From Thunnus maccoyii (Eukaryota > Chordata > Actinopteri > Scombriformes > Scombridae), in the NCBI RefSeq assembly GCF_910596095.1, contig NC_056535.1:28676505-28740504 (forward strand): DNA of 64,000 bases, given 5' to 3'. Made by a program: the position numbers and the translations under genes. Below are positions 7,101 to 63,259 of this stretch, in pieces. The notes under the pieces were generated by a model, which ran no database searches, was not told the DNA's origin, and was given only the letters and a program-made list of their open reading frames with translations. The stretch's first letter is position 1. The number at the start of each line of letters is the position of its first letter.

Positions 7101-10100
7101 TTCTTAAAGAAGTGAGTGTTTAATCTATAAAACATCAGAAAATAGTGAAAAATGCCTGCCAAAATTTCCCAGAGCCTAAATCCTCCTGGCATCTACTGTA
7201 GCTTGGTGATGTAACATAAGCCTCTTTCACACATAGTTCCCGGTAAATTACTGGGAGAACCTTTCAGGCATAGTGAGTAGTGATTTTCACTATTCACCCC
7301 TGATGTTTTCACACATGCCATGGCAATGCCGGAATAGATGGGGCAAGGGACAGTCCAGCAGATGGCAATAGTGCAACACTTACGTAATATGAGAAAGTTC
7401 ATAACGCAACCGCCATGTTGAAAACAAACAAGCCAAAACCAAGCAACTCGCAGTACGTCACCCACACGTCAAGTCTTGGTGATTGGTTTGCTCGCTCCAT
7501 GTGAAAGTGTCTTTCCCTTTACATGCTTGTCCCTGAAATGTTACTGCTTTCATTCACAACACAGTCATACCGGCATTTTCCCTGAAACATTACTAGGTCT
7601 TGAGGTGGGAAACTGGTGGTACAGATCTCCATCCCTGCTCCCATTCACACATGACCCCATGCAGGAAATGTTCCTGAACATCTCAGGGACAGACTGCATG
7701 TGTGAAAGGGGCTATACTGTATGTCAGATCTCCACAGCATCTTATTCACTTTCATTCATTCATTCTTTACAACATCCAGCAGGTCTCTCATCGTGCCTCG
7801 TCTTGGTGGAGTCTTTCAGGAATTAAATGTAAAAATTTGAATAATAGCGTTAGCATCTAAGGTCACCTGTGTCTGATGTGTATTTTTGCCAGATTCTAAT
7901 TTAGAAAAGTCAAGTAAAGTCGAAACCCAGTTTAGGAGGAGATCATGCAGTTTGCAGATGGTTCATTTCCTTCATCTGATGTTATTGAAGAGCCATATTT
8001 TACTGACTGCACCTTTGAGCAGAACAGACTGAGGGGCGAGCCAATGTGACTCCATAGGAGGTCAGAGGTCATTGTGGAAGGAGACAGTAGGGAGCCATGC
8101 AGGCAGCAGCCAGGAGGTTTACCATCATATTCCACAAGCAGGGACCCACAGAGGCTGTGAGTGTCTGTAATCCTGCGAGACAGATCTGCACCTCTGTTAT
8201 GTCAAATCTACACACAGAATACATCCACATTGATACACTTTTTAAATAACTTACTTAGAGCTGTGAATTCATAAAGTTAAAATGTGTTTTGCCTTGATAA
8301 AAGCAGAACTTTTGTTGTTAATCAACTTTCCAGGCATTCGAAAACACGTATAACCTTTTCATGTCTACCGAAAATATGTTTTAGATTTTATCCTGCATCA
8401 TCCAGACAACAATAAGATGTTCTGGAGAAGCTCTCTCAATTTGATTAACTATCGCTGTCATGGCTCCACTGTGTTTGGCACAGCTGTTTCAGAGCTATCG
8501 ACCCGGTGATGTGACAGGCTGAGAGTCTATTTATTCATCACCTCACCCTTTGATCTACAGTAGGGCTGCACGATTACTGCAAAATACAATCTCAATTCAG
8601 GCTTCAATGCAATCTGATTCAATCAACAATCCTGCCGTGTTTGGATTAGCAGTGGGAAAAATCTGTTGCACTAAACCAAACTCGCCTAATTTCTCCCTAA
8701 GCTGCATCGACAAATGACAAGTGTGCATTTCTTCTATGTGACAAACTGTGCACAGGAAGAGGCTAACGTGTGTGTGAAAAACACAGGAGTCAAATGATGA
8801 TGGTGAGGAAAAACAAATACATCTATTCACACTCAGCTCTGAGTTCTTTGTCTTGTTTACATATCATTTGATCAGATATTTCCTCAACACCGATGCATTC
8901 GTCAAACAAGTTTATACTCTGCAGAGTGAGATCTCATAAAGTATTGTTTTGGAATCAGTACTGAAACTCTGGTATGATATTGGTGCCAGTATTCAAACAT
9001 GACTCCCAGTAGACCTGCTACAGAACACACAGTAACTGAGATGACTGAAGCTCATAGATTAATAATAGAAATTATCTTGTTACTTCGACAAACAACAAAA
9101 CAAGCAGCTTTAAATAACTTACATGCCAAAGCGCAGGGTTCCTGACACGTAGGTCTGCCAATGGGCACAGTAGAACATAAACATCCCAGCAAAGCAGCAG
9201 AAGAACATCCAGTCCGGGTTTGTGCCCATCTGCACTGCTATACTGGTTCCCAACACGACAAACACTGCACAGAGACAAACAACAACACAGACGGTGTTAA
9301 AAAGGGGCTTCAGATGTGCTGAGACTAAGTGAAATGGAGGCGAACAGGAAAACAAACTAACCGGTGGAGAGGGAGTCACAGCCGTGGTCAAACAGCTCGC
9401 CCAGAGGAGAGCTGCTATTGGTTCTTCTGGCCTGCTTCCCGTCGATGGCATCCAATGACTGGTAGACAAACAGACCCACCGCACACAGCAGGTACGCCCA
9501 GAGAGGAGCCTGAAACATCACACACACACACATATTCATATTCAGCAGAAACCCACAAACATCCAGCTGAATAGAGCGATCGATCAGCTCCAGGTTCAGA
9601 GCTGCTTTAGACCTCATAAAGTCATGTGACCCAGGAAGTGACCTGATACATCAATACATATGATCAAAACGCTGACTAGTTAATAAAAAGACCCACAACC
9701 GTCCCCAAATATGTCCAGAACTTGTTGGTAGAGGATCAGACTCGGATGTCTCCAAAAATCCTGCTTATTAAATACACAGCTGGATACTTTCATTCATTAA
9801 TATCCTTTTATGTACTAGTGAGCTGTTCAAAAGATTTCATTTAGAGCGCAGCAGCCAAATCTCCAAACTCCCTTTTGTATTTTTTTGTGTGATACAAGGA
9901 CATTTTAAGGACTTCTATTTTTCCTATTGGATAAATAAAGACTCATATTTTACATATGGACTATATATTTACTAGAATTACAACAATTCATTGCCTAATT
10001 GATTAGTCAATCAACAGAAAATGAATCAGCAACTATTTTTCTAATCTATTCATCATTAACTGTCATTTTGTCAAGCAAAAATTGAAAATATTTGCTTCTT

Positions 10101-12820
10101 AATGGTGAATATTTACAGCTTTTCTTCGTCTGTCTCTTTCAACATCTTTGGGTTTTAAACGGTTGGTTGAACAAAATGATCTATTTGATAACAACTTGGG
10201 GTTTAGGATATTATGACAGGCCTTAGTCACCATTTCTTAACATTTTATAGATTTTAGACTTCATAGATTTTAAACTATTAAACTGATGAATTGTGAAGAT
10301 AATCTGCAGATTCACTGATGATGAATCATTTAGTAGCAGACCTAATATTTATTGCACTTTAATGACTTAAATTAGGCTTTTCAAACACAGTTTAAATTTA
10401 TTAATTAATGAGTCTATATTTATAGTTTGCATAACTATAACTGGTGATGCGGGTATCCATGCCAGCAGCTCAGTCACATTTTTCTGTGCTGCTCTTCACC
10501 TTTCAGTATTCAAACAGAAAGTCCACATATGATCACATGAGACCTTTCTGTCATCAGTCTTCGAGATCGAGACCATTTCTCAGGTAGACGGTAGTTCCAA
10601 CAGAAAAACTGTTGACAGGGAGGTATGTGGATGATCCAGAGTAACCAGGATGTTGTTTCTAATTTTTCTAACGCCGTTGTCTCCAGCTGGCTGCAGCACA
10701 GCCGTCAAATGACGAAACCAAAACTCTCTGCTTGGATAGATACCAGTAGAGTGATTTGGGTAAACTTAATATTGTAGATGGTCCCTTACAAATGAATCAC
10801 ATAAAGACTCAACTGCAGAAGGAAACCAGGAAACCATATTTTGGACTTAAGTGAAATATAACTTAATAATGTAACTTATATAAATGTACTTTAATGTTTA
10901 TAACTTAATAATAAAAGCTACCTAAGTCTTATGACTTTAAATGCTCTTAAATTTAAGAGAGGCCTCTGATGTTTGTTTATTTCTGTTTCTGTTCTGAGGT
11001 CACCCAGTATCGACTCTGTTTGGAGTGATTGTATAAAACATAACTGGTAGCAATAGCAGAGTTTATGTTTACATGAATTTGAGCCCGTTTAATACGTTTT
11101 AAAGACCATCCAGAATAACACTGTTTCAGGATGAACTGAACTAACCTGTTCAGTGGCAGTTGGGCAGTAGTAGACGAGCACAAGGGTGGTGAAGACGTTG
11201 GTAGCCAGGCCTATGATGGTGATTAGATTGGGGGCAATCCAGGAGGGGACTCGTCCCACCAACCATTCCCAGTAACGCTGCATTAGAGGCTCCAGCAAGG
11301 AGCGTCCAGCACTGCTGTACCTGTAGCAACAAACAACAGGCAGGTGAGGACCTGAAAACTTAACCCTTGAGATTTGGGCCATGATTAATATAACTGTTAA
11401 CTGGCTTTCATTACAGCAAAACAATTATTGGTTGAGTGAGGGCAATTTATACATCGCAAGAGCTGCAATTTTAAATCATAACTTACATAATTAACAGTGC
11501 CATAAGAGGCTGGAGAAAGTGACAGTTTAAGCCGGCAACTATTGATTTCATCAGCTAAAATGAAAACTGTTGCTGTCAAATGAACTCAGTGGTGGATAAT
11601 TGAAGTCAACTGTGTAAGTCGGAGTAAGGAAAAAATAAATCTTAGCTGTTGCTTGATTGATACGTTCTCAGTGAGCCACTGTCTGTAACAAAGACGGCCT
11701 TGTTACAGAAAAATAGTGCTCTGTATAATTTTGATGTTTGAGAAAATAAGGCATGGACTGTGTCTTTTTGCTGCTCAAGAAAAAAAAAAGACCAAAGTGG
11801 CAAATTTTTTTCGCCTACACAAATAAGTTAAGTGATCACGTCACATCAGTTTCAGACAGGTAGCAGGAGATAGCTCGGCAGTTGTTAAGTGTCAATTAAG
11901 ACAGCTAACAGGGACAGAGAGGTCAGAATCTCCTGATAAACTTTTAAGCATGTCGTCATATCATCTTTTTAAGCTTATAAACTTAAGAGTTCTGAGACCT
12001 CCAGGATTCAGAGCTATGAATCAATCTGTCCTGTCAGCCTGTGAAGCTAACGTTAGCTCAAGAAGCTACATAGCAGAGCTGTCAACAGTATATAAGTTTT
12101 TGATTTTTATCATAATATGCCAGTTTTAAATGTCATATTGGATTATTAAATAGCTGAGCTGAAGTGGTCAATTTTTTTTATACAGAAAAACAAGTTTACG
12201 TAGGAGTTGAATTTTCTGACTGAATGATTGGAACTCGAGTCAAGTTTGTCAAAATCTTGGTACAATCATCTCCACAAAAACAGACCTGGAGTTTAATTTA
12301 TAGAAAATAATCACAATTAAAACTTGGTCAGAACAAAATTAATAAAAAATTGATATTTTCCTCAGATTGCTCAGCCCCAGCAGCTACTACATAAAAAGTG
12401 TCCACTCTGATAAAGCTTGATGATGTCACCAACACGACTTCCATAAAAGGTGAGCCACCACACACTAAACCCATCCATATCAGACTGGTTAATCTCTGTA
12501 TATTTCTATACATACTTCTGCTAAAAAACACAGAACTACACAGAATTACATGAAGTTAAATATAACTACCGCACAATATAAAGTTTTACTTCAGTTTGTT
12601 TCAGTCAGTAGAGCAGGAGTCAGTGGTACCTGTGCTCCTCCAGCCTCTTGAGCTGGTGTCGGGACAGGGGGGGTGAAGGCAGCTCGATCAGCCTGCGCAG
12701 CACTCCGGGGGCCAGCCAGCAGGCTGCCTCCATGCCCATGGCCTGCCCAGGGTCCTTGTCCCGGCCAAGACCTCGGCGAGAACGCAGGGCCCCCCCTTGC
12801 TGCTGCCCCGTCGTGCTCAT
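4025..12820 (-). CDS. cept1: Choline/ethanolamine phosphotransferase 1 (whole coding span)
   Basis: The enzyme transfers phosphocholine or phosphoethanolamine from its CDP-activated form to diacylglycerol, the last step of the Kennedy pathway, in ER/nuclear membranes. Nine coding exons join in frame: 12820-12630, 11320-11146, 9509-9362, 9264-9123, 6286-6202, 5872-5741, 5542-5384, 5096-4971, 4147-4025. They total 1281 nt, or 426 residues plus stop (human CEPT1 is about 416). The CDP-alcohol phosphotransferase signature DG-x2-AR-x8-G-x3-D-x3-D is intact in exon 4 (DGKQAR through FDHGCD). The remainder is a multi-pass membrane protein. Resemblance is closer to CEPT1 than CHPT1, for example [14 protein letters not shown] and the C-terminal [11 protein letters not shown]. 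The start is the first ATG after an in-frame upstream TAG. This MSTTG start matches an internal MSTTG of human CEPT1, so the human N-terminal 24 residues are absent. Confidence 0.93.
4290..4780. repeat. AT-rich degenerate repeat
   Basis: Variants of 'tctcataatt' and 'gacttt' recur irregularly, as at 695-1385. It lies within the last cept1 intron. An imperfect GATA-like stretch starts it. Confidence 0.45.
4971..5096 (-). CDS. cept1: cept1 coding exon 9
   Basis: This exon is 126 nt in phase 0, from acceptor 'ctgttcacag' to donor 'gtaagt'. It encodes [13 protein letters not shown] through [10 protein letters not shown], which is strongly conserved in CEPT1/CHPT1. Confidence 0.93.
5384..5542 (-). 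CDS. cept1: cept1 coding exon 8
   Basis: This exon is 159 nt in phase 0, from acceptor 'tatcctcag' to donor 'gtaagt'. It encodes GTSVLSP through KITNKLV, including a hydrophobic membrane segment and the KHPCLYIL motif typical of the family. Confidence 0.93.
5741..5872 (-). CDS. cept1: cept1 coding exon 7
   Basis: This exon is 132 nt in phase 0, from acceptor 'tgattgccag' to donor 'gtaagt'. It encodes IPILNIQMK, then [18 protein letters not shown] and NGSTIA. The CEPT1-type [15 protein letters not shown] stretch is clear. Confidence 0.93.
6202..6286 (-). CDS. cept1: cept1 coding exon 6
   Basis: This short 85-nt exon runs from acceptor 'cccactcag' to donor 'gtaatt'. It completes an isoleucine codon and encodes [13 protein letters not shown], then [14 protein letters not shown]. 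It matches the CEPT1 [16 protein letters not shown] segment and links exons 5 and 7 in frame. Confidence 0.92.
6575..6870 (-). mobile_element. Fish miniature repeat ('TTAGCTTAGC' type)
   Basis: Read on the minus strand it contains GTCAACATTTTGGGAAATAC, then TAGCTTAGCATTAAGACTGG, then a stretch on lacking coding capacity. I recognise this as a repeat that is widespread in percomorph genomes. A second, plus-oriented partial copy lies at 31250-31395. It sits in cept1 intron 5. Confidence 0.6.
7216..7717. mobile_element. Miniature inverted-repeat element (CCTTTCACACATG termini)
   Basis: Inverted ends at 7218-7236 and 7698-7716 (AGCCYCTTTCACACAT) bound about 500 bp without a transposase frame. 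Subterminal GGGA-rich and 'tcacacatg' motifs recur inside. It lies in cept1 intron 5. Confidence 0.6.
8560..8650 (+). repeat. Fragment of a 'GGGCTGCACGATTA' fish repeat
   Basis: The string AGGGCTGCACGATTACTGCA followed by 'caatctcaattcaggc' resembles one end of a dispersed fish DNA repeat. Only this end was recognised. Confidence 0.35.
9123..9264 (-). CDS. cept1: cept1 coding exon 5
   Basis: This exon is 142 nt, from acceptor 'ctctgtgcag' to donor 'gtaagt'. It encodes [19 protein letters not shown], then [20 protein letters not shown] and SGTLRFG. The [10 protein letters not shown] and [10 protein letters not shown] strings are typical of CEPT1. Confidence 0.94.
9362..9509 (-). CDS. cept1: cept1 coding exon 4 (catalytic signature)
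   Basis: This exon is 148 nt, from acceptor 'gatgtttcag' to donor 'gttagt'. It encodes [20 protein letters not shown], then [20 protein letters not shown] and DHGCDSLST. This holds the complete CDP-alcohol phosphotransferase motif, with all its aspartates (DG...AR...G...D...D) present, so the enzyme is predicted to be active. Confidence 0.95.
9975..10350. repeat. Dispersed 'GATTAATC' repeat copy
   Basis: The stretch begins with 'ttgcctaattgattagtcaa' and ends in 'gcagattcactgatgatgaa', with the internal signature 'ttgggttttaaacggttggt'. It is the same family as 12956-14155 and 31680-32000: AT-rich, with GATTAATCG-like ends and a conserved 'tgtcattttgt' core. Confidence 0.5.
11146..11320 (-). 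CDS. cept1: cept1 coding exon 3
   Basis: This exon is 175 nt, from acceptor 'gttgctacag' to donor 'gttagt'. It completes an arginine codon and encodes [20 protein letters not shown], then [20 protein letters not shown] and [18 protein letters not shown]. It includes the first transmembrane helix. Confidence 0.95.
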
Positions 12821-12932
12821 GGAGCCCTGCTGCCTGCTGGTCTGGTCCCCGATGGCTCTGGCTCTGGTTCTGCCACTGTCCTGCCTGAGGGGCTAAAGAT
12901 CCACAGAGGGGCTTGATGAGGCTGGACAGTAC
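12630..12932 (-). CDS. cept1: cept1 exon 2 with start codon
   Basis: The exon begins after acceptor 'tctttttttag'. Translation starts at 12820 (ATG), because an in-frame TAG lies about 75 nt upstream and no other in-frame ATG intervenes. It encodes [20 protein letters not shown] through LKRLEEH and ends at donor AG/gtacca. The N-terminal 40 residues are basic and Gly/Gln/Arg rich. They are longer than the segment between MSTTG and PSPPLSRHQ in human CEPT1, so this looks like a fish-specific extension of low complexity. Confidence 0.88.
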
Positions 12933-19530: not shown

Positions 19531-19536
19531 TTTAAT
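19531..19536 (-). terminator. Candidate poly(A) signal ATTAAA for the PTH-family gene
   Basis: ATTAAA is read on the minus strand about 45 nt after the stop codon. An alternative AATAAA is at 19289-19294. The choice cannot be made from sequence alone. Confidence 0.35.
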
Positions 19537-19579: not shown

Positions 19580-19850
19580 TTAGGGATCTCTGTCTGGCAG
19601 TTGAGTCAGGTACGGATTAAAGAAGTCTCTCAGGAGGCTCTGCAACCGGGCGGGCTGGGGGCTTCCAGCAGAAGGGACCAGCGCCGGATTGAGAACCAGG
19701 TTCAGGGCCTTTGTGGGGTTGAAAGCGGCAGAGCGAGTCTGGGCGGTGTGGAGACCCTCGATGGCGCTGGACAGCCAGATGAGTCTCTTGAGACTCTGGA
19801 TGGTTCGGCCGCGGTCGTGCATCAGCTGGTGTTCAGTCACAGCTCGGCGA
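19580..19850 (-). CDS. pth4: pth4 exon 3 (mature hormone)
   Basis: The acceptor is 'ctgtctccctccag', preceded by a (CT)n polypyrimidine tract. The first base completes a serine codon, then Arg-Arg (processing site, 19844-19849) and the mature peptide from 19843. The C-terminal half, starting around SAAFNPTKAL and ending TQLPDRDP, has no dibasic site. Stop codon at 19580-19582. Confidence 0.88.
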
Positions 19851-22800
19851 CTGGAGGGAGACAGAGGTGAGAGAGAGAGAGAGGCCATCTGTTAGTCAGA
19901 ACTGGTACATCCTCAGTACACGTCCTCACTGTTCAATCTATACTGGCGTGACCGATTTTAATAAAGATGTTTGGCAAAGGTTTTTTATTTTATCCAAATG
20001 CAGAGGCAGATTCAAAATGTATGTACAGTACAGGTGATCTACATGAACAGATGAACATTTGTGATGGTTGAACATGTGATTCCAAAAATATGGGTATTAA
20101 TCTGCTGCTATAACAGCCTCCACTCTTCTGGTTTCAGGCTTTCCACCAGATTTTGGAACCTGGATGCAGGGACATGCTGCCGTTTATCCACAAGAGCGTT
20201 AATGAAGTCCAACACTGATGTTGGGTGATAAGGCCAGACTTGCGTTTGTGTTCCAGTCCATCATAAAGGAGTCGGAAGTTCTTCCTCATAAAACTGGGAA
20301 AACCCTTTCATATGAACCTGGCTTTGTGCACAAGGGCATTGTCATATTTAAAAACCTAAGTTACAAAGTGCTTCACACAGCAAATTAAAATCAACAAATT
20401 ATAAAATCCAATGTAAAATCTAAAAAAACATTTAAAAATAACTCAAGTAAAGTCAGGATAGATTTTCCTATAACAGATTTAAGAGGAGATTTATAAGATG
20501 ATACTGATTCAGTCAGTCTGATTTCTTCTGGCTGGTTTTTACAGAGCCTCTGGGTCCTGATTGAAAACACTCTGACCCCTCCAGTTTTAATTCTGGACTC
20601 TGAAACAAAGATCTCAGGCTACGTACAGGCTCGTATGTGGTCAGATATATTGCCAGGAGATGGGAACACGAAGAGCCTTAAAAAACATGACAATCTTTCC
20701 ATGTTGAAACTGGAAAGCATCTTCCCCAAACCGTTGCCATGAAGTTGAAAGCACATTATTGTCTAAAATATGATTGTATACTGTAGCATGAAGATTGGAA
20801 CTAAGCAACCGAAACCAAACCAGGAAAAACAGATAGTGATCACATAGTGTGTATCAGTAGGTAAAGAACACCTGCAGACACAAAATCAACCATCCCAAAG
20901 TGATATTTCATCATTTTCACATTTCACTTTCTGATTTTGTTTTGACGCTCAGTGGTGACTCACAAATCCTCGAATTTTCCTCCCAGCTCAACTGTGATAA
21001 TCTGAACGCTTTAATAAAACACATTTTTTCAACCATTTTCACCATTACAGTAATTTTGCAGCACATGTAGCCACACTATGAACGGTAGTGTTATGGTTCT
21101 GCTTTGGAGCAGGAAATATATTTTTTGTGGACTTTTTGACATGTTTTGCTGTGAGATTCTGGGTCTCCAAATAAATTCACTGTAACCTTTCAGAGTACAG
21201 GTGACAAGAAATACTAGAAATTATCTTTTCAGTGGAGTATTCCTTCAAGCTACAGCAGATGCACATAAAACATTTCCCTACTGCTACATTTATTAAGTTA
21301 CTACTCTTTTTTTCAATGCATGCAGGAACATCAAACCGCATTCTGATTCATAGCAATAAAAATAATTCCTTGCGCCTTGTAAATAAGTTGAAAACAGGAG
21401 GGGCGGTTGTCTCACCTCTCGTTCTGTTGACACTGGCCAGTTGTAAAGACAACAAGAAGCATGACAGCAAGCCACTGCACAGGCCTGTGGGACATCTGCA
21501 TCTTCTGTGGCAAAACAGCAAGAAACACATCAAAACTCATCATGTAAAAGACAAAAAAAGTTATCTTGACCCATTAAAATGAAGAAATGCCAACTTGTAA
21601 GCTCTCATCACTGATTGCATATGTCTACTGGTGTTCAACCAGTTCAACTAAAGATTGAATTCCCTTGCTAGTATATTTTAATGACTTCTGAATAATTTCT
21701 GAAGAAGTGAAATCATCCATGAACTCTCAAGAAAAGAGTAAAGATTTGAGAAAAGTCAGGAAATAAATAAATATAAATGAGCAGGAGAAACAAGCTCATG
21801 TGACCTCTCAGATTTATCTTGCGACCCCTTCTGGGGGTCCCGACCACAAGTTGGAATTATAACAGTATGCAAAACATTAAATAAATACAAACTCCTATTT
21901 AAAGGCAATGTATACAGGCAATTTCAGACACTTTTCTTCCTTTTTACCTGCACAAAATCTCATTGTGGTCTTTTAGTAAATAAGGACGCTCATAATTTGA
22001 CTATTTAGCATCTAAGGAAGCAGACTTGGAGAGTTGTATTGTAAGTGTTGTATATTTTGTGTTTGATCACTGACTATGACGTCAGCGGGATGTAATCAGC
22101 TTTGTGCCTATTTACAGTATCCATATAACGCTGCCTCTCACATCAATGAGGTTTTGGGAGCTTTAATCCAGTGTGCAGGTACTCTACACTTTTTCCATCA
22201 TGAATGTATCCTGCACCTAAACATGCTGTACGATGGGTTGTGCATTGATATCAAGATCCCATCATTTTTTAACATAATAAATACCAAACTTGTGTTTTTC
22301 TTTTCAAAAATTTGCATCAGCCTGCTTTGCCTCCCTTACCTTGTAAAGCAATTTTCCAGCCTAACAGTGATGTACACAACTATAATACGAGACATGTCAG
22401 ATGTTTACACCTCTCAGTGTTCTGTACTGGACTCTATCAATTCTCTATCCGATATCAGGAGGCTCAGCTATGAAACAGTTATATTTAAATTGCATTTCAG
22501 TCTACTTCTCTCAAGAATCTCAAATATAGGCTTCGGACCTATCTGATGAGCCAAACTTAACTGTCTGTACTGATCACATCTGACTATAATTGGACTTTCT
22601 CTCACTCTCTCTTTTGTAAAGAGTTGACTGAACACACTCACGTATACGCCAAAGCTCACAAACCCTCATTACATTTGCCTACTTTTCCTACTTTATGTTT
22701 GCTTTTTGATCCTATGGTTGCTTGTTTGCTTATTTTTGTGGATTACATGACTTTGGTATTTGCTTATAATGAATACTGAGGTGAGATTCCTTCTATAAGC

Positions 22801-23840
22801 CTCCAGAGGTTTTCTAAATCCAACCTGCACAATTTGCTTCTTGTTGTGTTTCTGCTATTTTGTTTTATCGTTTTTTTCCCCTCTGACCACAGCTGCTGTT
22901 TTCTGTGAAGAAGCAAACTACAAACTCTTTACAGCCTTCTTCTTTCAAGTGTTTGATACTGAAAAGATTTTGTATGAAAAACTACTTAAAAGTGAGTCAA
23001 AATTAAAATTTCAGTCTCTTGTTTTCAGTATTCTACCTTTGAAGTGTTGCTGAAAAATGGAAAAACTGATGTTAAAGGCTCCGCTTCATGAAAGTAGGCA
23101 TGACGACAGGTAAGACACTCAACTTCCTCTTATCTCAAGCTGAATTTATGATTCTCCAAAGCTACATATAACTGTCACAGAAAGGTGTTACTGTAGGTCA
23201 CATAAGAGTCAACAAGCACAACTCCCAAATCTCAGCAATGAATCACGCAGACATGAGCGTCAAGCAAACTGATCAATAAATCTAACTTCTAAAGTAGTAG
23301 ACATTGAAACCGCCACGTGAACGACCCCACATGTGTGTCCATCTTTCAGTCAACCTGCTGCATGGATAAAAATGGAAACTACTATTTTCTATTCTATTTC
23401 TTAATTTTTCTTTGTTAAAATTTTCATGTTAATTTCACAAATAAAAATGCAATTTTATTTTTTTTAAAAATGATTGAATGAGAGTTTTTAACACGTTAGT
23501 AATTTTAAAAATTGAAAATACATCACACAGACCTATGATGCCACACTTTTTAAAAACTTTAACAGGAAAATTTGACTGTTTTGTTGCCTGAAAGAGTCAC
23601 AAAGCTGTTTAAACAATTTAACATAAATCATCAAAGTTATAGTTTATTCACATTTTTGCAGAAATAACTCAACAGAGAGATGAATAATGACTCAGGTTAC
23701 AGAAGTGTAACTTAAAAAATGAAGCTAAAAATATCTTGAAATTGAAACAAAATCTGACTTTTTGTATTAAAGTGATGATACTTAAAGGTACTTACATTGT
23801 CCCTGTTGGTGACAGCAGCTCCTCTGATGATCAGACACTA
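19580..23840 (-). CDS. pth4: Parathyroid-hormone-family peptide, probably Pth4 (whole gene)
   Basis: This is a secreted peptide hormone precursor expected to act through class B PTH receptors. The three exons mirror vertebrate PTH genes: 5'UTR (about 23840-23796), signal peptide (21504-21416) and hormone (19850-19580). The product is 118 residues: an N-terminal signal (MQMSHRPVQWLAVMLLVVFT), a short pro-segment ending in Arg-Arg, then an 87-residue mature chain starting AVTEHQLMHDRGRTIQSLKR. Against human PTH(1-34) it keeps Glu4, Gln6, Leu7, Met8, His9, Gly12, Arg20, Trp23, Leu24 and His32. The AVTEHQL start recalls PTHrP. The compact size argues against PTHLH, and the receptor-binding half differs from PTH1. 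Pth4 (PTH-L) is therefore favoured by inference. Alternatives are pth1 or a short pthlh paralogue. Confidence 0.85.
19860..19885. repeat. (GA)n microsatellite forming a splice polypyrimidine tract
   Basis: On the minus strand this is CTCTCTCTCTCTC lying 9-35 nt upstream of the exon 3 acceptor of the PTH-family gene, so the microsatellite is the polypyrimidine tract itself. Confidence 0.7.
20060..20800 (+). mobile_element. Fish repeat split by a second insertion
   Basis: The outer element reads 'ctataacagcctccactctt', 'ccaccagattttggaacctg' and 'aagtccaacactgatgttgg', and resumes at about 20700 with 'atgttgaaactggaaagcat'. A second copy of the outer family without the interruption is at 39655-39960. 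Comparison of the two locates the insert at about 20346-20700. It lies in the second intron of the PTH-family gene. Confidence 0.6.
20346..20700. mobile_element. Inserted dispersed repeat (about 350 bp)
   Basis: It interrupts the element described at 20060-20800. Signatures are 'gttacaaagtgcttcacaca', 'ctccagttttaattctggac' and 'tctcaggctacgtacaggct', which I recognise as a recurrent fish repeat but cannot assign to a class. A 2-3 bp target duplication (AT or CAT) is possible. Confidence 0.45.
21416..21504 (-). CDS. pth4: pth4 exon 2 (signal peptide)
   Basis: The acceptor is 'ctgttttgccacag', the first ATG is at 21501, and donor GAG AG/gtgaga follows 21416. It encodes 28 residues with a hydrophobic core, LAVMLLVVFTTG, typical of a cleaved signal peptide. 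Cleavage near the Gly-Gln-Cys/Gln region is likely. A second in-frame Met is at residue 3. Confidence 0.87.
23796..23840 (-). other. pth4: pth4 exon 1 (5'UTR)
   Basis: The exon ends at donor AAT/gtaagt after 23796 and begins about 30 nt downstream of the TATA box, so the start site near 23840 is inferred. There is no ATG, as in PTH exon 1. Confidence 0.65.
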
Positions 23841-23868
23841 AACTGACTTCAGGTTCGACCTCCAGACC

Positions 23869-23875
23869 TTTTATA
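23869..23875 (-). promoter_or_regulatory. pth4: TATA box of pth4
   Basis: TATAAAA on the minus strand, about 30 nt upstream of the inferred start. PTH genes are typically TATA-driven. Confidence 0.7.

Positions 23876-23885: not shown

Positions 23886-23912
<27 letters not shown>
23885..23912. repeat. (CA)13 microsatellite next to the pth4 TATA box
   Basis: An uninterrupted CA/TG tract begins about 10 bp upstream of the TATA box. Such tracts can form Z-DNA and vary in length. Confidence 0.9.

Positions 23913-38866: not shown

Positions 38867-63259
<24,393 letters not shown>

Follow-up and report, generated by a model that had tools for sequence, protein, structure and literature searches.

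The window, that is, the whole stretch of 64,000 nucleotides analysed here, almost certainly carries an intact pth4 (PTH-L) orthologue of percomorph fish, very likely that of Thunnus maccoyii (southern bluefin tuna). This analysis established the structure of the gene, its open frame and hormone signature, its orthology and its shared-contig neighbourhood. Because pth4 is already known and widely annotated among bony fishes, the tuna copy is ordinary, and the conserved C-terminal block LLRDFFNP is the only less familiar feature of the gene and the one point worth pursuing. The T. maccoyii genome retains a brain-to-bone hormone gene that eutherian mammals are reported to have lost; the absence from eutherians stated in the original prediction, which was made from the letters alone, agrees with the available text of a published study (PMC5640766).

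On the minus strand, exons 2 and 3 (Table 1) join in frame to give a 118-residue prepro-hormone with no internal stop. The 3' end of exon 2, read on the minus strand as GAGAG/GTGAGA, is a consensus GT donor, and the acceptor of exon 3 at 19850 (...CTCCCTCCAG/TCGCCG) has the consensus AG, so that the junction reads QQNE/SRRAVTE in the protein. The precursor consists of the leader MQMSHRPVQWLAVMLLVVFTTGQC, hydrophobic by eye and a putative signal peptide, the pro-piece QQNESRR, the mature peptide AVTEHQLMHDRGRTIQSLKRLIWLSSAIEGLHTA, which starts AVTEHQLMHD, and 53 more residues. It matches the Pfam family Parathyroid (PF01279) with 53.2 bits (cut-off 22, E = 5.4e-14), a match beyond chance. Ten open frames lying within the locus or close to it were also compared with Pfam; no family was matched over its cut-off, and two frames gave weak matches below it. 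The GT and AG ends, the open frame and the Pfam score bear out the original prediction of an intact PTH-family gene coding for an in-frame 118-residue precursor with putative Arg-Arg processing. All ten hormone positions that it had named (Glu4, Gln6, Leu7, Met8, His9, Gly12, Arg20, Trp23, Leu24 and His32) are present, counting precursor A32 as 1.

Table 1. Features of the pth4 locus and its neighbours in the window
Feature	Position	Strand	Remarks
cept1, 5' coding exons	9122..12892	-	Downstream neighbour, same strand as pth4
ATTAAA, possible polyadenylation signal	19531..19536	-	From sequence only; further AATAAA at 19294-19289
Exon 3, coding part	19580..19850	-	(S)RR and mature hormone; stop TAA 19582-19580
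LLRDFFNP, precursor residues 101-108	19613..19636	-	Conserved C-terminal block
Mature hormone, residues 1-34, AVTEHQLMHDRGRTIQSLKRLIWLSSAIEGLHTA	19742..19843	-	Pfam, identities, tree
Exon 2	21416..21504	-	Codes leader and pro-piece MQMSHRPVQWLAVMLLVVFTTGQCQQNE(S); sequence read directly
Start codon, exon 2	21501-21499	-	First ATG of exon 2
Exon 1	23796..23845	-	Donor ACAAT/GTAAGT at 23796; 5' limit inferred from TATA spacing
TATAAAA, TATA-box-like	23869..23875	-	Upstream of exon 1; putative, sequence read directly
Plasma-membrane Ca-ATPase, coding exons past the N-terminal ones	38891..63257	-	Upstream neighbour, same strand; compatible with atp2b4

Exon 1 contains no in-frame ATG; splicing it to exon 2 gives the in-frame leader IIRGAAVTNRDNKMQMSHR, in which Met1 is the first ATG. 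This arrangement suggests that exon 1 is untranslated in T. maccoyii pth4. The spliced leader resembles the annotated N-termini of the Acanthopagrus schlegelii (P0029, MIRGAAVNNKKMQMSHR) and Chaetodon auriga (P0006, MAVTNRDTMQMSHR) proteins, the two of 120 listed orthologues with an annotated coding stretch similar to it, and this resemblance indirectly supports the exon 1-2 junction. The database entry for isoform X1 of Lates calcarifer (P0031) has eight additional residues, hinting at an upstream acceptor for exon 3; in the tuna sequence, the nearest AG found by eye lies 38 bases upstream, in a different frame. Upstream of the TATA-like element, at a distance of 10 bases, is a TG/CA microsatellite (23886..23912, minus strand); changes in the length of this microsatellite could affect pth4 expression.

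The protein search returned 220 homologues at E <= 0.001, the top match being a Chelmon rostratus protein annotated as parathyroid hormone 4 (93% over 100%). Among the best 120 of the 220, 72 are named 'parathyroid hormone 4', 16 are unnamed and 32 bear other names (PTHrP, PTH, hypothetical and others). Annotation thus does not generally overlook the gene, and the suggestion that standard predictors can miss it found no support. No T. maccoyii pth4 entry appears among these best 120 of 220, though one may sit within the cluster of P0001 (11 members). In ungapped comparison counting precursor A32 as 1, residues 1-34 are identical at 29-34 of 34 positions (median 32) to 116 of the 120 listed proteins, the other four having been dropped for want of a measurable core. 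The corresponding ungapped identities to human peptides are 18/34 for PTHrP, 12/34 for PTH and 2/34 for TIP39.

A profile search of the 782-Mb T. maccoyii genome, which scored the best candidates only and disregarded introns, gave four PF01279 matches: the window gene on a contig of 37,555,862 bases (C3), two pthlh-like genes (L001 on C23 and L002 on C5) and, also on C5, one resembling pth1 (L004). The pth1-like gene is identical to the annotated pth1a of Thunnus albacares over 38 compared columns. It has a PTH-family hormone region in common with the window gene, but is identical to it at 15 of 34 positions, has an MHN motif and bears RKR before its mature peptide. The pthlha-like (L001) and pthlhb-like (L002) genes share with the window peptide the MHD motif and HTA at 32-34, but are identical to it at 18/34 and 16/34 positions, respectively, have a long basic C-terminal part and occupy separate loci.

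The gene also agrees with what has been published on teleost PTH-L. The teleost pth-l gene is reported to be interrupted by an intron immediately ahead of SRR, to lack a KR site in front of the hormone and to carry an MHD motif (PMC4354418); in the T. maccoyii gene, the intron likewise lies right before SRR, no KR site precedes the hormone and MHD occupies positions 8-10 of the mature peptide. The PTH-L precursor is reported to be coded by two exons (PMC3009671), as it is here by exons 2 and 3. The zebrafish pth4 forward primer in Table 1 of PMC5645135 reads, by our own translation, LKRLIW in one frame, and this core is present in the window peptide. With teleost pth4/PTH-L, known from zebrafish and Takifugu and annotated in many percomorphs, it shares the two coding exons, the intron before SRR, the MHD motif, the LKRLIW core and, over the listed proteins, 29-34 of 34 hormone residues; we saw no substantive difference. 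A few T. maccoyii substitutions that are rare among relatives lie outside the hormone region (S89 in 0/113, D117 in 1/107 and V81 in 3/116).

In a tree of 38 rows and 38 columns (18 rows from the 120 of the pth4 list, 14 from the 110 of the pth1 list, the three paralogues of the same genome, two human peptides and the window), the window gene falls inside the pth4 group of 19 rows, itself included, with support of 99/98. The original prediction had named clustering with pth1 or pthlh as what would speak against pth4; this placement and the hormone identities instead uphold the pth4 assignment. The pth1 rows form a separate group (100/95), and the three pthlh rows did not come out as one group with these 38 columns. 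In the AU tests, the row of the window gene, which two other pth4 rows match exactly, was for that reason left free, so that these tests say nothing usable about its placement; under this setting, placement of the window with pthlh gave a p-AU of 0.31, and that with pth1 was returned as 'already one side'.

The window gene might instead be a paralogue of pthlh (PTHrP). PTHrP is the best-scoring solved structure (32 bits, against 22.8 or less for PTH), some database entries within this orthologue group carry the name PTHrP or pthlhb, and the AU test, with the window row free, did not reject such a grouping. However, PTH-L has been published as nearer to PTHrP than to PTH (PMC4354418), the genome has its two separate pthlh-like genes, which are identical to each other at 30 of 34 positions, and the tree places the window with pth4; this paralogy is therefore extremely improbable. 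A second pth1 copy (pth1b) would share the two coding exons published for PTH (PMC3009671), and a single pth1-like gene was found among the family matches, best candidates only, in this genome. This reading has next to no probability, being opposed by the separate pth1 group, by MHD rather than MHN at positions 8-10 and by just 7-16 of 34 identities (median 14) to 90 of the 110 sequences in the list obtained with the tuna's own pth1, the other 20 having no measurable core. On the identities and the tree, paralogy with either pthlh or pth1 was rejected.

An unexpressed or decaying copy of pth4 might explain an exon 1 without an in-frame ATG, but the hormone region is identical to that of orthologues, and a TATA-like element and possible polyadenylation signals are present. 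Because the frame and the consensus splice sites are intact, we rejected a pseudogene as very improbable, if slightly less so than either paralogy, and regard the gene as an intact pth4.

Of the two neighbours named in the original prediction, cept1 was confirmed, with 366 bits to choline/ethanolaminephosphotransferase 1 versus 295 to the best cholinephosphotransferase 1. The upstream neighbour is a plasma-membrane Ca-ATPase whose best match among those listed is from T. maccoyii (95% identity to a query assembled from exon pieces); among its listed relatives, those of several fishes are called ATPase 4 and those of many others 1-, 2- or 3-like, and this mixed naming makes atp2b4 a likely identity rather than a demonstrated one. 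The Ca-ATPase gene beside pth4 appears to be the one that accompanies it in other fishes. Among the matches listed (the best 120 for each protein), 23 species had both proteins with a contig size, and in 19 of these the two are listed with contigs of equal size (Takifugu flavidus, Trachinotus anak, Perca fluviatilis, Solea solea, Acanthopagrus schlegelii, Brachyistius frenatus, Scophthalmus maximus, Anarhichas minor, Spinachia spinachia, Pampus argenteus, Ophioblennius macclurei, Echeneis naucrates, Labrus bergylta, Centroberyx gerrardi, Amphiprion ocellaris, Pagrus major, Tautogolabrus adspersus, Betta splendens and Dunckerocampus dactyliophorus); since each cluster is shown with the size of its longest contig and the lists hold the best 120, this evidence of linkage is indirect. 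The sizes are unequal in Channa argus, Pseudochaenichthys georgianus, Pungitius pungitius and Centroberyx affinis, and Seriola was excluded because its cluster mixes species. In Pampus argenteus, pth4 and the ATPase bear the consecutive names PAMA_010201 and PAMA_010200. For SFRS3, a neighbour of tetrapod PTH-L, the available text of PMC3009671 reports that no link was found in Takifugu; MRPS35 has been published as a neighbour of PTHrP. Literature searches for pth4 together with atp2b4 and for T. maccoyii together with parathyroid hormone returned nothing relevant.

For secretion, cleavage, receptor use, expression in the hypothalamus and function, we draw on published work in other species and propose the following scenario as likely by analogy. 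The neuropeptide precursor would shed its signal peptide, and cleavage after Arg30-Arg31 would release the peptide starting AVTEHQLMHD, whose helical 1-34 region may activate the class B PTH receptors Pth1ra/Pth1rb; Pth4 may then act on phosphate, calcium and bone mineral. In zebrafish, Pth4 is reported to be made by hypothalamic neurons and to influence phosphate and bone mineral through Pth receptors (PMC5640766). Published receptor data on chicken PTH-L do not all agree, the abstract of PMC3483286 describing it as effective on chicken PTH1R and the discussion as having low capacity.

Percomorphs conserve the LLRDFFNP block, and it can still be recognised in gadiforms, smelt and salmonids. 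Among the 64 windows of eight residues that lie outside precursor residues 30-69, it varies least, with a weighted entropy of 0.76 bits versus a mean of 1.75 (s.d. 0.39) for these windows and 0.24 for the hormone. DFF or NFF is kept in eight of ten smelt, salmonid, gadiform and opah sequences, three of which have LLRDFF exactly; the block is missing in two, since P0110 stops short of it and P0111 has a different sequence there. For the part coded by exon 3, a structure model, weak in view of its mean pLDDT of 66 and pTM of 0.34, has predicted helices at precursor residues 32-71, 74-82 and 94-106, the last reaching into the block. The block might be a second functional element, serving as a further receptor contact, as a signal for sorting or as a peptide in its own right, but we consider this rather unlikely. 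A limited search for C-terminal terms found no mention of it in the available text of the pth4 literature.

Two further stretches of the window, 20108-20305 and 39586-39828, were left unpaired by an ungapped repeat search, and the latter has no Pfam match. By eye, they resemble pieces of a single interspersed repeat, and both read PGSKIW in one frame.
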